From Pyrinomonas methylaliphatogenes (GTDB taxonomy: Bacteria > Acidobacteriota > Blastocatellia > Pyrinomonadales > Pyrinomonadaceae), in assembly GCF_000820845.2 (NCBI RefSeq), contig NZ_CBXV010000008.1, forward strand, positions 976,705-1,040,704: a stretch of DNA of 64,000 bases, in the 5' to 3' direction. A model generated the notes under the pieces. The model did no database searches, had not been told where the DNA came from, and saw only the letters and a list, made by a program, of their open reading frames with translations. The position numbers and the translations under genes were made by a program. Positions 21,906 to 27,092 of this stretch are shown piece by piece; position 1 is the first letter of the stretch; each line of letters opens with the position of its first letter.

Positions 21906-23039
21906 ATGGCGAACGAGCGAATCATCGATTGGGAACTCATCCGACGCGATTTCCCGGTGACGGAACGCATGGCCTATCTGAACAGCGCCGCTGCTGGACC
22001 GATCGCGCGTCCGGTCGCTGAAGCGGCCATCGGTTTTTATCGCGATATGATGATGGGCGGCGACGCTCGCTGGGACGACTGGCGCGAAGAGGTGGAAAGG
22101 GCGCGCGCCAGCGTCGCACGATTGATCAACGCCGATCTGGATGAGGTCGCGTTTACGACGAACACTTCGACCGGAATGAACCTGATCGTCGATGCGCTCG
22201 CAGATGCGGGCGAGGTGATCTCGTGTGAACTCGAGTTTCCGACTTCCACCATCCCCTGGATGCATCGCGGCGTGCGCGTGCGCTTTGCCGAAACCGTCGA
22301 GGGACAGTTGCTGCCCGAAGCGATTCGCCGCGCGATGACAAGGCGAACCGGGATTATCGCGATCAGCCACGTGCAGTACTCGAACGGTTTTCGCGCCGAT
22401 CTCGAAGAGATCGGGAGGATCAAAGGTGATCACTGGTTGGTCGTCAACGCGAGTCAATCGGCGGGCGTTCTGCCGATCGACGTAAAGCGGATGCGCATCG
22501 ATGCGCTCTGCGCGACTGGCCACAAGTGGCTGTGCGCGGGTTATGGCGTCGGCTTCGTTTATCTCAGCCGTCGCCTCCTAGAGCGGACAAAACCGCATGC
22601 CATCAGTTGGATGAGCGTTCACGAACCGTTTGCGATGCGCAACGATCGTTTCCGCGTAAGGGGCGATGCGGCGGCGCGCGCCGAGGTCGGCTGTTCACAC
22701 TTTGCGGGCATCTTTGCGCTCGGCGCGGCGGCTGAATACATTCAGGCGATCGGCATCGAACGGATCGCGCAGCGGGCGCTGGCCCTGAACGAGCATCTGA
22801 CGCGCGAACTCGAGCGCGCCGGGTGGCGCGTCCTTTCGCCGCTCGGTGAGGCGCGCTCGGCAGAAACGCTCGTCGCCGCCGCCGATCCGCCGCGCGTCGT
22901 CGCGCACTTGAAAGAGCGCGGCATCGCTGTCACGGAAAAGCCGGAGGGTTTCCGCGTCGCGACGCATTTCTTCAATACGACGGGCGATATTACGCGGCTC
23001 ATCGCCGCGCTCGGTGAGACGTGGGCACAGGTCGTCTGA
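21906..23039 (+). CDS. Class V aminotransferase / cysteine desulfurase-like PLP enzyme
   Basis: 377 aa from ATG 21906 (GGAGTG upstream); the longer open frame before it overlaps lysA antisense and is not coding. Family signatures are YLNSAAAGPIARPVAEA, VAFTTNTSTGMNLIVDAL, IAISHVQYSNGFRADL, LVVNASQSAGVLPIDV and the PLP lysine in ATGHKWLCAGYG. The usual SufS C-terminal active-site Cys region is not evident, so aminotransferase, epimerase or kynureninase-like activity is likelier than desulfuration. It directly precedes the BMC shell genes (176-bp gap) on the same strand and is the only enzyme candidate in that locus, though it lacks an obvious N-terminal encapsulation peptide. Confidence 0.85.
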   Translation: MANERIIDWELIRRDFPVTERMAYLNSAAAGPIARPVAEAAIGFYRDMMMGGDARWDDWREEVERARASVARLINADLDEVAFTTNTSTGMNLIVDALADAGEVISCELEFPTSTIPWMHRGVRVRFAETVEGQLLPEAIRRAMTRRTGIIAISHVQYSNGFRADLEEIGRIKGDHWLVVNASQSAGVLPIDVKRMRIDALCATGHKWLCAGYGVGFVYLSRRLLERTKPHAISWMSVHEPFAMRNDRFRVRGDAAARAEVGCSHFAGIFALGAAAEYIQAIGIERIAQRALALNEHLTRELERAGWRVLSPLGEARSAETLVAAADPPRVVAHLKERGIAVTEKPEGFRVATHFFNTTGDITRLIAALGETWAQVV

Positions 23040-23215: not shown

Positions 23216-23503
23216 ATGGAAGCTCTCGGGATGATCGAAACCAAAGGATTGGTGGCGATGATCGAGGCTGCCGATGCGATGGTCAAGGCGGCCAACGTCA
23301 CGCTCGTCGGTTATGAGAAGATCGGCGCCGGATTCGTCACGGCGATCGTGCGCGGTGACGTGGCGGCGGTCAAAGCGGCGACGGATGCTGGCGCTGCCGC
23401 CGCACGAAGGGTCGGCGAGTTGGTCAGCGTGCACGTCATCCCGCGCCCGCACGCGAGCGTTGACGAGAATCTGCCCGTCAGCTTCAACTATCAAGGCGGA
23501 TGA
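23216..23503 (+). CDS. Microcompartment hexameric shell protein (BMC-H)
   Basis: 95 aa, the normal length of a single Pfam00936 BMC domain. It starts [20 protein letters not shown] and has the pore-side [20 protein letters not shown], followed by [20 protein letters not shown], as in PduA/EutM/CcmK. Six copies form a hexagonal tile with a central pore near the KIGAG loop. The ribosome site is GAGGAG. It overlaps the next gene by ATGA. It is the only BMC-domain protein in the window; no BMC-T gene is present. Confidence 0.95.
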
Positions 23504-23772
23504 TCATCGCACGAATACTCGGCACCGTCGTCTCGACGCAGAAGGATCCGAAGCTCGAAGGGCGCAAACTGCTCATCGTCCGTCCGCTCAATTTGGATGG
23601 ATCGGACGGGAGCGGTTATCTGGTCGCCGTCGATACGGTCGGTGCGGGCTTTCATGAGCGCGTGCTCGTCGTGTCGGGATCGAGCGCGCGCTTGGCGCAA
23701 GGCATGAAGGATACGCCGGTCGATGCGGCGATCATCGGCGTCATCGACACGGTCGATTTCATCAACGATTGA
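23500..23772 (+). CDS. Microcompartment pentameric vertex protein, paralogue 1 (EutN/CcmL, BMC-P)
   Basis: 90 aa. [19 protein letters not shown] opens the Pfam03319 beta barrel, then [29 protein letters not shown] and the closing [13 protein letters not shown]. Pentamers cap the twelve vertices of a BMC shell. It overlaps the hexamer gene by 4 bp and is followed by two more paralogues, so three different vertex types could be built. Confidence 0.95.
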
Positions 23773-23788: not shown

Positions 23789-24073
23789 ATGCAGCTTGCG
23801 CGCGTCATCGGCACCGTGGTTTCGACGCAGAAGAACGATTCGCTCGAAGGGCGTAAACTGCTCATCATCCAATCGCTCGATGCGGACTTGCGCCCGCAAG
23901 GGAAACCGCTCGTCGCTTTGGATGCTGTCGGCGCCGGCATCGGCGAACTCGTCTTCTGGTGTCGCGGCAAGGAGGCGAGCTTCCCGTTCGAACGAGAAGA
24001 TACGCCGACCGATTGCACCATCGTCGGCATCGTCGATTCGCCCGCGCACGTCGTGAAAGGGAACGGAAGATGA
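23789..24073 (+). CDS. Microcompartment pentameric vertex protein, paralogue 2 (BMC-P)
   Basis: 94 aa from ATG 23789. [49 protein letters not shown] and DCTIVGIVDSPA show the whole EutN/CcmL barrel. The best purine run (GGGAG) touches the ATG, so initiation probably relies on coupling to paralogue 1, whose stop is 16 bp before. Its 5' part shares 41 identical bases with paralogue 3 (23798-23838 versus 24079-24119), which implies recent duplication or gene conversion. A tryptophan-cysteine pair (VFWCRG) is unusual at the barrel edge. Confidence 0.94.
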   Translation: MQLARVIGTVVSTQKNDSLEGRKLLIIQSLDADLRPQGKPLVALDAVGAGIGELVFWCRGKEASFPFEREDTPTDCTIVGIVDSPAHVVKGNGR

Positions 24074-24360
24074 TCATCGCGCGCGTCATCGGCACCGTGG
24101 TTTCGACGCAGAAGAACGAGCGCTATGCGAACGCGCGCATCATGCTCTGTCAGCCGATCACGCCCGAAGGCGAAGAGGTGGGAACGACGCTTCTGGCCCT
24201 TGATTCCGTCGATGCCGGGGTGGGCGATACGGTCCTCATCGTGCAGGAAGGGTGGAGCGCCTCCGTCGTGGCGACCGGGCGCCCAGGAGCGGCCATCGAT
24301 TCGGCGATCGTCGGCGTGATCGATCGGATCGATCTGTTGCCAGAGGAAGGGGCCTCATGA
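24070..24360 (+). CDS. Microcompartment pentameric vertex protein, paralogue 3 (BMC-P)
   Basis: 96 aa from ATG 24070, which overlaps the stop of paralogue 2 as [58 protein letters not shown] and SAIVGVIDRIDLL define the EutN/CcmL fold. The LEGRKLLI segment of the other two is replaced by YANARIMLC, so this paralogue has diverged at the outward loop. Next gene overlaps by ATGA. Confidence 0.94.
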   Translation: MIIARVIGTVVSTQKNERYANARIMLCQPITPEGEEVGTTLLALDSVDAGVGDTVLIVQEGWSASVVATGRPGAAIDSAIVGVIDRIDLLPEEGAS

Positions 24361-24713
24361 ACGATGAACGGGAGATTCGCGCGCTGGCCGAACGCATCGC
24401 TCGGAGGTTAGAGGGCGAGCCCGCAGCTCGAATGACGGAACTAGACGCCGTGCGCGCGGCGCTCGCCGAGATAGAACGTCGTTTGGCGCGTGTCGAATCG
24501 CAACTCGAAGCGTCAGCGCACAAAGCCCCGATCGAAGATCATCCCTCCGCGCCCATCTCCTCGTCCATCTCGCACCCGAGTCAAGAGAGGTTCGGCGTCG
24601 GCGAAGCCGTCGCCGAACTGGTTGATTATCTCGAACAGGAGAAGATCTGCAACCTGGAGCCGGGTAAAAAGCCCTGTGATCATTGCGCGATGTGCAGCGC
24701 GCGCGGGTTCTGA
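24357..24713 (+). CDS. Microcompartment-associated small protein: encapsulation-peptide-like helix plus four-Cys tail
   Basis: 118 aa. Residues 4-19 (EREIRALAERIARRLE) form an amphipathic helix like the encapsulation peptides that direct cargo into BMCs. A second charged helix (about 25-52), a Pro/Ser/His linker (53-78), a short helix (EAVAELVDYLEQEK) and a C-terminal C-x8-C-x2-C-x2-C cluster (KICN...PCDHCAMCSARGF) follow. The Cys spacing suits an iron-sulfur cluster or zinc. Last gene of the shell operon, coupled by ATGA; it ends 4 bp before the convergent lemA. Function unknown; inferred as cargo or an adaptor or electron carrier for the compartment. Confidence 0.8.
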   Translation: MNDEREIRALAERIARRLEGEPAARMTELDAVRAALAEIERRLARVESQLEASAHKAPIEDHPSAPISSSISHPSQERFGVGEAVAELVDYLEQEKICNLEPGKKPCDHCAMCSARGF

Positions 24714-24717
24714 ACGC

Positions 24718-25344
24718 TTAGCGGCTCTGCGCTGCATTGCTGTTCCGCCGTAGCGCGTTCGGATCGATGCGGGGGACTTGTCGCGCTCCTTCTTCCGCGC
24801 GGAAATAGGGCTCTTCCTTGAATCCGAAGAGGCTCGCCACCAAAACCATCGGGAACTGATTGCGCGTCGTGTTGTAATCCTGCACCGCGGCGTTGTAGTC
24901 CTGGCGCGCGACGGCGATTCGATTCTCGGTTCCGGCGATCTCATCCTGAAGCTTCAGAAAACTCTCGTTCGAACGGAGCGTCGGATAGTTTTCGACGAGC
25001 ACGAGGAGCCGCCCGAGCGCGGAGGTCAGGTTCTGGTTCGCTTGGATGATCTGCTCGCGCTGTTCGGGCGTGCGGTTCTGTGGATCGCCTTGCGTCGCGT
25101 TCAGTAGCTGCGAACGCGCTTGCGCGATCTGACCGAAGACCTCTTGTTCTTGAATGCCGGCCATCTGCGCCGCCGCGACCAAATTCGGGATCAGATCGGC
25201 GCGCCGTTGAATCTGCGTTTCGACGTTGGCCCAGCGGGCGCGCACGTTCTGCTGCTTTTCGACCAGCGTGTTGTAGCCACAACCGCTGTTGGCGATAGAG
25301 ATCAGCGTAATCGCTACCAGTAGCACGATGTGTCGTCTTTTCAT
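24718..25344 (-). CDS. LemA family lipoprotein
   Basis: 208 aa. Of two ATGs (25350 and 25344) the second is better placed behind the GGAGG ribosome site (7 bases versus touching). The signal peptide ends in a lipobox at SGC (Cys22). The LemA helical core follows: YNTLVEKQQNVRARWANVET, QRRADLIPNLVAAAQ, LTSALGRLLVLVENYPTLRS and YNAAVQDYNTTRNQFPMVLVASLFGFKEEPYF. LemA proteins are envelope helical-bundle proteins of uncertain role, often near TPM-domain proteins, as here (26268). Confidence 0.95.
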   Translation of the reverse strand: MKRRHIVLLVAITLISIANSGCGYNTLVEKQQNVRARWANVETQIQRRADLIPNLVAAAQMAGIQEQEVFGQIAQARSQLLNATQGDPQNRTPEQREQIIQANQNLTSALGRLLVLVENYPTLRSNESFLKLQDEIAGTENRIAVARQDYNAAVQDYNTTRNQFPMVLVASLFGFKEEPYFRAEEGARQVPRIDPNALRRNSNAAQSR

Positions 25345-25424
25345 CTTCATTCCTCCCTACCGAAGTCTGACTTGGGAAAAGGTCCTTCCGATCAGGCGCA
25401 GAGCGCGTGTCTCCTTCGCCAAGT

Positions 25425-26168
25425 TCAACCGTCATGGGTGGATTCATCCAGACGGTCGGTGAAGTCGATGAGACGCTCGATCTGCGCCAGATAAGCGGCG
25501 AAGAGTTGTTCAACTTCCGCTCGGTCGATCTCATCTGCGCCTCGTTCGCGAAGAGCGAGCAGGGCATCGAAAACGGCCCGGTCCAATGCTAAGCGCTCTG
25601 CGGCGAGCGCGATGAGGTCGCGTTTGGCGACGGGCGGCTTCCTCTCGCCGCTCAGCATCAAGGCGGGCGCTAGAAGGGCTATGACGCCCGGGAGACTTTC
25701 AATCATCAGTGCGCGCAAACGCTCAGGCGAGCTGGCCCCCGAAATGTAGCGGCGGCGCAGTTGGAGCAACTTGCCGCGTAACTCGTATTCGGTCTGATGT
25801 CTCAGATTCTCGTCAGAGATCGTCACGCCTTCGAACGGATCGACGCCATAAAGCACGCGCCGCGCATCCTCCATGTGATGAAATTCGATGGGGAAAACAT
25901 CGGCAGCCTCACGCAGTTCGTCGAGCGTGAAGTAGACGGGAGGCGAATATCCTAACCGTTGCCAGTTACGCACGGGTCCTTGAGCGAGTCGCAGATCGTC
26001 GAACGTAATGCGTCGCAGCACGACCAGCAGGTTGTAGTCCGATTGCTGCGGGATGTGATCGCCGACGGCGGCTGAGCCGTAAAGAACAACGGCGATCAGA
26101 TTCTGCCCATGCGTCTCGCACAGATCGTCGATCAGCGCGCGTAAGATGTTTTCGATTCGAGCGCTCAT
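25425..26168 (-). CDS. Nucleotidyltransferase-domain protein
   Basis: 247 aa. The NTP_transf signature AVVLYGSAAVGDHIPQQSDYN (G-S then D-x-N near residues 32-45) is present. One of the usual carboxylates is Asn (SDYNLLVVL instead of SDxD), which may weaken catalysis. The C-terminal ~120 residues are helical, like a HEPN/KNTase-C substrate domain. Substrate unknown. Ribosome site GGGGAAGG is part of the repeat at 26171-26206. Confidence 0.75.
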   Translation of the reverse strand: MSARIENILRALIDDLCETHGQNLIAVVLYGSAAVGDHIPQQSDYNLLVVLRRITFDDLRLAQGPVRNWQRLGYSPPVYFTLDELREAADVFPIEFHHMEDARRVLYGVDPFEGVTISDENLRHQTEYELRGKLLQLRRRYISGASSPERLRALMIESLPGVIALLAPALMLSGERKPPVAKRDLIALAAERLALDRAVFDALLALRERGADEIDRAEVEQLFAAYLAQIERLIDFTDRLDESTHDG

Positions 26169-26170
26169 CG

Positions 26171-26281
26171 GAGCCTTCCCCGAAGTGGATCTCTACCAAC
26201 TGCCACAGCTCATAATCCGCGTCGGCGATACGCGACTCTAGCGGCGAGCCTTCCCCGAAGTGAATCTCTACCAACTACCAC
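26171..26281. repeat. 36-bp direct repeat, 39-bp spacer, duplicating the 3' end of the TPM gene
   Basis: Copies at 26171-26206 and 26246-26281 match at 34 of 36 positions, period 75. The right-hand copy contains the last codons and stop of the TPM gene (stop 26268-26270); the left-hand copy is the ribosome site region of the nucleotidyltransferase. The 39-bp spacer is unrelated to both. Confidence 0.9.
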
Positions 26282-27092
26282 CAGCGCCGCCGCCGCCGAA
26301 ATCTCCGCCACCGCCGAAGCCGCCAAACCCCCCACCTCCGCCGAAACCGCCGCCGCCGCCCCACGTCCAACCGCGCGCGCCGCTGCGACCTGCGCGACCG
26401 CCGCTCAGGATCGAGCCCCAAATGAGCAGACTCAAACAGCCGCGCCCCGCCGGATTCGACATCAGGAGGAGAAACAAAAACAGGACGATAAAGAAGATGG
26501 CGCAGGCCGAGAGCGGGGAGACAGAAGGGGTCTGTTCCGCAGGCCGCTCCGCATGATAGGCCTGGCTTCGATCTATGCCCTCAAGATCGAACCCGCGCTT
26601 TTCTGCTAGCGTCGCGATGATCCCTTGAACGGCTATCATGATGCCTTCGCCGTAACGCCCTTCGCGAAAATAGGGGCGCATGCGCCGCCCGATCTCGCCG
26701 ACCAGTCCATCGGGAAGATCGCCTTCGAGATGGCGGCTCACCTGAATGAAATATTTTCGATCATCGACGGCGACAAGCAGGAGCAGCCCGTTCTTCTCCC
26801 CTTCGCTCGATCCGATCCCCCAACTGCGGGCCAGTTCAAGAGAATAATCGAAGATATCTTCGCCGCCAGTGGTCCGCACGGTGACGACGGCAAATTCGAT
26901 GTCAGCGCGCTCTTTCAGATTGCGCAACAGCGTTTCAAGCCGAGCGGCAGTTTGCGAGTCGATGACGCCCGCAAAGTCGTTCACGTATCCGACGGGCGCC
27001 GGAAAGGTAGACCCGCTGCGCTGCGCGCGGATGGCGATGGCAAAGCCGAACGCGGAGAGCCAAAGGAGCAGAAGGGGTCGAAGCGTGCGCAT
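26268..27092 (-). CDS. TPM-domain (YgcG-like) membrane protein with glycine-rich tail
   Basis: 274 aa. A signal peptide (residues 1-22) precedes a TPM domain: GYVNDFAGVIDSQTAARLE, IEFAVVTVRTTGGEDIFDYS, WGIGSSEGEKNGLLLLVAVD, and GRYGEGIMIAVQGII. One transmembrane helix (about CAIFFIVLFLFLLLMS) is followed by a very Gly/Phe/Trp-rich tail ending GGSW, typical of YgcG. It probably acts at the membrane with LemA, which lies two genes away. No strong ribosome site was seen. Confidence 0.9.
   Translation of the reverse strand: MRTLRPLLLLWLSAFGFAIAIRAQRSGSTFPAPVGYVNDFAGVIDSQTAARLETLLRNLKERADIEFAVVTVRTTGGEDIFDYSLELARSWGIGSSEGEKNGLLLLVAVDDRKYFIQVSRHLEGDLPDGLVGEIGRRMRPYFREGRYGEGIMIAVQGIIATLAEKRGFDLEGIDRSQAYHAERPAEQTPSVSPLSACAIFFIVLFLFLLLMSNPAGRGCLSLLIWGSILSGGRAGRSGARGWTWGGGGGFGGGGGFGGFGGGGDFGGGGAGGSW

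Follow-up and report, generated by a model that had tools for sequence, protein, structure and literature searches.

A conserved four-cysteine protein linked to the third pentamer gene of the ACI-type microcompartment in Pyrinomonas methylaliphatogenes

Introduction

A shell operon of a bacterial microcompartment (BMC) in Pyrinomonas methylaliphatogenes closes with a small gene whose product carries four cysteines near its C-terminus, raising the question of what such a protein contributes to the organelle. The window analyzed here is the whole stretch of 64,000 nucleotides on contig NZ_CBXV010000008.1, to which positions refer unless a locus is named. An earlier note, made from the letters alone, had described the product (Cys protein) as an N-terminal helix of the cargo-targeting type joined by a linker to a Cys cluster, and had considered it a luminal redox carrier or an adaptor tying an enzyme to the shell. 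As reported below, the Cys protein is a genuine and conserved component of an organelle type that is known yet unstudied; with regard to function, we infer that it is probably a metal or Fe-S redox part held inside the organelle.

Results and discussion

Shell operon and microcompartment type

The reading frame of the Cys protein lies where the earlier note had placed it (ATG start, TGA stop, 118 residues). It comes last in a tight five-gene run, following BMC-H, BMC-P 1, BMC-P 2 and BMC-P 3 (Table 1); 4-bp gene overlaps occur within the run, including the one between the BMC-P 3 stop and the Cys protein start. Three convergent genes (24718-27092, - strand), presumed by eye to be LemA-like, nucleotidyltransferase-like and TPM-like, the one directly 3' of the Cys protein gene presumably being of the LemA type, recur beside the BMC operons of relatives; the downstream convergent gene clusters c7, c10 and c9 are present in 15, 14 and 14 of 23 stretches, respectively.

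Table 1. Positions of the shell operon, the parts of the Cys protein and its long homologues (window positions unless a locus is given)
Feature	Position	Strand	Evidence
BMC-H shell protein (EutM-type)	23216..23503	+	PF00936, E 4.4e-31; NCBIfam EutM model above cut-off
BMC-P 1	23500..23772	+	PF03319, E 2e-31
BMC-P 2	23789..24073	+	PF03319, E 1.2e-31
BMC-P 3, pentamer gene staying beside the Cys protein	24070..24360	+	PF03319, E 7.2e-23; adjacency
Cys protein (P0001), EP-type helix, coiled coil, four Cys	24357..24713	+	118-residue ORF; homologues
N-terminal amphipathic helix, residues 2-19, of encapsulation-peptide type (putative targeting)	24360..24413	+	AF2 pLDDT 80-83; moment 0.80, shuffle fraction 0.019
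Coiled-coil-like helix, residues 22-54	24420..24518	+	AF2; alignments A1 and A2; weak PDB profile matches
Pro/Ser-rich disordered linker with HPS motif (residues 73-75)	24519..24596	+	AF2 low confidence
Cys4 tail, C98-x8-C107-x2-C110-x2-C113-x3-G-F, reaching the C-terminus	24648..24710	+	Sequence; homologues
Long homologues with inserted domain	L091 9047-9772; L092 9445-10080; L226 95-682; L227 7972-8529; L228 8691-9245		Families f5, f8, f11

ACI loci were described by Sutter et al. 2021 (PMC8217296) from Acidobacteria, most of them in subdivisions 4 and 6, as comprising (i) a BMC-P triplet and a BMC-H, (ii) a class II aldolase (pfam00596) bearing a C-terminal encapsulation peptide (EP), (iii) a satellite aldehyde dehydrogenase (AldDh) and (iv) "several proteins of unknown function"; a hydroxyacid dehydrogenase (pfam00389/02826) belongs to the criteria given there, and a link to carbohydrate breakdown is proposed. 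The genes of the window together with the genome of P. methylaliphatogenes, a subdivision 4 species according to a published abstract, fit this type. BMC-P triplet and BMC-H are located in the window, the genome totalling three BMC-H and four BMC-P matches. The class II aldolase (G000:C2:156008-156784; PF00596, E 8.6e-50) is encoded on another contig (L088) together with a Rex-type regulator (domain pair PF06971, PF02629) and ends in GKISLTREELIQLLCEV, a C-terminal EP-like helix. The satellite locus (L054 9934-15306, i.e., G000:C8, about 299-304 kb) holds an AldDh (L054 12947-14713; PF00171, E 1.1e-23) beside one BMC-P and two BMC-H genes, as well as DUF711, ACT and zinc-ribbon proteins. PF02826 yields 14 genome matches (8 over cut-off), none of them beside the window operon, the satellite or the aldolase.

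Several features of these partner proteins deserve record in their own right. The ACI class II aldolase (L088 8988-9800) has a Cys motif of its own, ARCQxCGYL...C, directly ahead of the EP-like helix at its C-terminus, and a C-x2-C-x6-12-C pattern is found in 47 of 56 aldolases of the loci, some genomes being counted twice. In the AldDh, an EP-like helix is followed by an extra C-terminal segment, GEKIYINARTIITPAARDMG; segments of this kind occur in other BMC proteins. The presumed N-terminus of the ACT-domain protein in the satellite locus, MVDQDLIYRITRVIYENL, resembles an encapsulation peptide, and a DUF711/ACT pair is a puzzling element of a BMC locus.

Distribution and link to BMC-P 3

At E 0.1, a search with the protein itself matched 71 of 97 relatives, a number that certainly includes chance matches, while profile A1 was matched in 66 of the 97 at E 0.001 and in 36 of 396 genomes of an even draw of the phylum. 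Within the class, the A1 matches fall into families f1, f3, f5, f6 and f8; others lie in f22, a family of another class, whose two members were confirmed by eye. Profile A1 missed further divergent members in three f2 and three f11 genomes, which were found downstream of BMC-P 3 and with an f8 query, respectively.

BMC-P genes are present in 87 of the 97 relatives, among them 65 of the 66 genomes with the Cys protein. The remaining genome is an assembly of 81% completeness whose match lies at a contig start; it is also the only one of the 10 relatives lacking BMC-P to carry the Cys protein. No A1 match was obtained in 22 of the 87 BMC-P-bearing relatives: three of these possess the divergent f2 form, and two f1 contigs stop just after BMC-P 3. 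Another of the 22, an f1 genome, has intact sequence downstream of BMC-P 3 with no Cys protein, and none follows BMC-P 3 in six f4/f7 genomes and the other f2 genomes examined. The Cys protein is tied to the shell yet dispensable.

A pattern scan of 84,980 species genomes returned 55 stretches, of which 44 were confirmed as relatives and 11 were not. All 44 carry acidobacterial titles (Acidobacteria, Blastocatellia, Pyrinomonadaceae or Chloracidobacterium sp.), and this one scan, with 11 of its 55 stretches unconfirmed, revealed no homologue outside Acidobacteriota; since a single 8-residue pattern was used, divergent homologues could be missed.

The earlier note had called for homologues next to BMC genes and would have abandoned its reading had they lain mainly elsewhere. 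The opposite was found: a BMC-P 3 orthologue is located directly upstream on the same strand in 43 of the 44 named loci, and in the remaining one the contig starts 57 bp before the Cys protein gene. The same holds for 29 of 29 best-scoring relatives' loci, a set overlapping the 44. In the 38 of 44 loci measured, the two genes are spaced by a median of 12 nt (range -8 to 167 nt), the six others having doubtful starts or no pentamer. The full order of Rex, class II aldolase, BMC-H, three BMC-P and Cys protein is kept in 30 of the 44 named loci, and two more are missing only Rex; five f6 loci consist of just BMC-P 2, BMC-P 3 and Cys protein, and the other seven are mostly short or start inside the cluster. 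Two f22 genomes, from another class, likewise show aldolase, BMC-H, three BMC-P and Cys protein in order. Where other families have their shell genes split, it is BMC-P 3, usually along with BMC-P 2, that keeps its place next to the Cys protein, and not BMC-H. The enzyme accompanying the Cys protein family is the class II aldolase, encoded elsewhere in the Pyrinomonas genome.

Protein anatomy and N-terminal helix

The AF2 model of the Cys protein, built with 34 homologues, places four elements before the tail: the N-terminal helix, a coiled-coil-like helix that the earlier note had missed (pLDDT 74 for residues 21-30 and 95 for 31-50), the Pro/Ser-rich linker recognized in that note, which is disordered over about residues 55-80 (pLDDT blocks 65, 46 and 57), and a short helix at 81-95 (about 63). 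Within the linker, H73 and P74 are invariant in alignment A1 (20 rows), while alignment A2 (22 rows) keeps H but not P. The Cys tail has no confident fold (pLDDT blocks 55-63). Presence of the coiled-coil-like helix characterizes the window's family f1; it was not seen in f6 members, the minimal one of which (77 residues) is modelled with helices 3-19 and 39-55 and a tail of pLDDT 51-62. The common architecture is therefore terminal helix, linker, short helix and Cys tail. Outside the helices, both models have low confidence, and neither includes a ligand.

That the N-terminus forms an amphipathic helix, as first proposed, agrees with the model and with the hydrophobic moment; its targeting role is a prediction, and the moment is a weak measure. 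The best 14-residue moment within residues 2-21 (0.80) is reached by 1.9% of 5000 same-residue shuffles and by 0.7% of 278 background N-termini (longest ORFs, with noisy starts). The mean moment is 0.62 in 52 family members versus 0.36 in the background. The measure is weak because only 20 of the 52 members beat their own shuffles at 5%, and because the presumed EP helices of the aldolase (0.40) and AldDh (0.33) of the same genome score low, that of the ACT protein reaching 0.70. EP-bearing BMC cargo is defined by a terminal amphipathic helix of 15-20 residues and a flexible linker (PMC8217296). Helix and linker of the Cys protein match this definition, with the coiled-coil helix standing between them in f1. 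The N-terminus thus fits an encapsulation peptide, by which the protein may be targeted to the shell.

Known-family searches and the inserted domain

The failure of the earlier note to recognize a named family was borne out. P0001 gave matches only below curated cut-offs in Pfam (best E 0.016) and NCBIfam (best E 0.0083), and against PDB sequences the best E was 0.0085, with no stretch passing alone; PDB profile searches reached E 0.03 (A4) and 0.63 (A5), many matches being coiled coils. No BMC domain was found in P0001 (Pfam). Fe-S or ferredoxin families were matched neither by P0001 (Pfam, NCBIfam, PDB sequences) nor by five divergent members (Pfam).

Homologues of families f5, f8 and f11 contain about 100-150 extra residues between helix and Cys tail. 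Their tails are homologous to the family (hhalign probability 98.8, E 7.6e-17), the alignment of the pre-tail part to the coiled coil having little meaning. Among the components that Axen et al. 2014 (PMC4207490) list for EUT2 and GRM loci is a flavoprotein. By eye, the insert had been read as a PF02441 flavoprotein; this reading failed in hhalign (probability 0.5%, E 0.12), so that the insert remains unnamed. Pfam gave no match up to E 5 (f5 and f8 proteins only), and the f8 protein alone found nothing below E 0.29 among PDB sequences.

Conservation of the Cys4 tail and nature of its site

The C-x8-C-x2-C-x2-C spacing given in the earlier note is correct and belongs to a strongly conserved tail. 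Conservation was assessed on 52 proteins extracted by a four-Cys pattern (P0001, 8 from one locus set and 43 from named loci, with at least two duplicates from the two sources). The pattern was matched in 38 of 38 loci of one scan, and one of the 44 named loci was dropped, its helix being unrecognised; chosen starts are doubtful in L158, L174, L181 and L182. In all of these 52 pattern-selected proteins the chain ends five residues past the last Cys, with GF in 51 and GL in one, and first and second Cys are separated by 8 residues (43 proteins) or by 7 (9 proteins). Divergent members outside this set finish in GF, GY or GH. Given the conserved tail and fixed C-terminus, 24357-24713 is no chance ORF.

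The CxxCxxC core plus fourth Cys suggests a metal site, as judged from the sequence pattern. Its middle (third) Cys is replaced by Ser in three f2 and two f11 proteins and by Thr in one f11 protein, the other three Cys being kept. Ferredoxins of the [3Fe-4S] type lose the same core Cys, and this parallel favours Fe-S over zinc. Weighing against an Fe-S function of the tail are the host's lifestyle, strain K22T being an obligate aerobe (PMC4644332), and the unconfident models of the tail.

A somewhat unlikely alternative is a structural zinc tail, in which the four Cys would bind Zn and, with the Gly-Phe end, form an adaptor linking BMC-P 3 vertices to cargo bound through the helix or coiled coil, without any electron transfer. 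The gene's closer linkage to BMC-P 3 than to any enzyme speaks for this adaptor, as do the constant C-terminus of all 52 pattern-selected proteins and a tether-like build, with a coiled coil and a linker that connects the two ends. However, replacement of the third Cys in six proteins of two families, with the remaining Cys intact, is unusual for a Zn(Cys)4 site, and zinc-finger families were matched neither by P0001 (Pfam, NCBIfam) nor by five divergent members (Pfam).

A metal-free thiol/disulfide or persulfide device, serving inside the lumen to switch redox state or buffer thiols, would suit the aerobic host and the absence of confident tail structure from ligand-free models. It is nevertheless improbable: the regular CxxCxxC with a fourth Cys 7-8 residues earlier, found in 52 of 52 pattern-selected proteins, is more metal-like, and one Cys is replaceable.

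Hardly credible is the earlier idea that the Cys protein ties an enzyme to the shell, if the upstream class-V aminotransferase-like enzyme (about 21906-23039) was meant. That gene lies on the same strand, some 175 bp before the operon, but relatives of it are missing from 79 BMC-region loci at E 1e-10 (0/79; some loci cut by contig ends, some genomes included twice), and the gene upstream of BMC-H in relatives is usually the aldolase.

Proposed function

The reading preferred here, on which our confidence is evenly poised, is that of a conserved accessory cargo of the ACI organelle, luminal, tethered by its helix and bearing an Fe-S tail. Also counting against it are the dispensability of the family, the weak amphipathicity measure and the lack of an apparent PduT-like partner. 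The N-terminal helix would dock to the shell from inside or condense with other cargo, the coiled coil would make the protein an oligomer, and the disordered linker would give the Cys tail its reach. The tail may hold a [4Fe-4S] cluster, perhaps [3Fe-4S] in some lineages, and might pass electrons within the lumen, possibly at a vertex pentamer. The neighbourhood is redox-minded on account of the AldDh and the Rex-domain regulator. Rex senses NADH/NAD+, and one may speculate that the Cys protein helps to balance NAD(H) for the AldDh of the organelle.

The luminal redox carrier of the earlier note is thus a plausible reading. A more specific version, in which a soluble, helix-tethered Fe-S carrier inside the BMC docks on BMC-P 3 with its fixed Cys/Gly-Phe tail and serves as a route for electrons in or out, is rather unlikely. 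It would operate in an aerobic thermophile whose genome shows no PduT-type pore protein and no PduL match (0/1 for this genome; 2 of 14 control genomes positive), and in acidobacterial relatives, most of them uncultured. No tandem BMC protein of the PduT kind was found in the genome, its three BMC matches being single and apart; as only single-domain matches were found, no PduT-like partner is apparent. If the lumen does hold an Fe-S site, a tethered carrier could give electrons a way into or out of a microcompartment besides the shell pores, and engineered shells could be given metal sites by using the tail as a tag.

ACI organelles occur in a soil-abundant phylum and have been assigned no chemistry beyond the proposed carbohydrate breakdown. 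A strictly linked small Cys4 protein represents a molecular marker for this type, and this single 13-kDa protein, once purified, offers a direct way to learn whether there is an Fe-S redox site in the lumen. Among the literature matches listed, supplements aside, no paper is recognisable as dealing with the Cys protein.

Comparison with known systems

Bacterial-type ferredoxins combine a CxxCxxC core with a distant Cys, the second core Cys being replaced in some. The Cys protein shares core and distant Cys but differs in that the latter is located upstream, not downstream before a Pro, and in that no ferredoxin profile is matched. CDGSH (mitoNEET) proteins have a Pro-Cys-Asp string inside their Fe-S motif; this string is common to both, whereas the Cys protein has another spacing and no His ligand at that position.

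Within microcompartments, the closest likeness is to the ACI locus (PMC8217296), with its EP-bearing aldolase, BMC-P triplet, BMC-H and satellite AldDh. Neither the Cys protein nor its motif seems to be described in the text of that account, as distinct from its supplementary locus diagrams; the protein may be among the ACI "proteins of unknown function", perhaps drawn as an unnamed gene in the supplements. PduT, GrpU and PduS (PMC6325248) resemble the Cys protein as redox parts of microcompartments. According to Ferlez et al. 2019, a [4Fe-4S] cluster is bound in PduT by a single pore Cys from each subunit, and the protein may transfer electrons through the shell. However, PduT and GrpU are shell proteins and PduS is a flavin/Fe-S enzyme, as presented there, while the Cys protein lacks a BMC domain, possesses an EP-like helix and gathers its four Cys in one tail.
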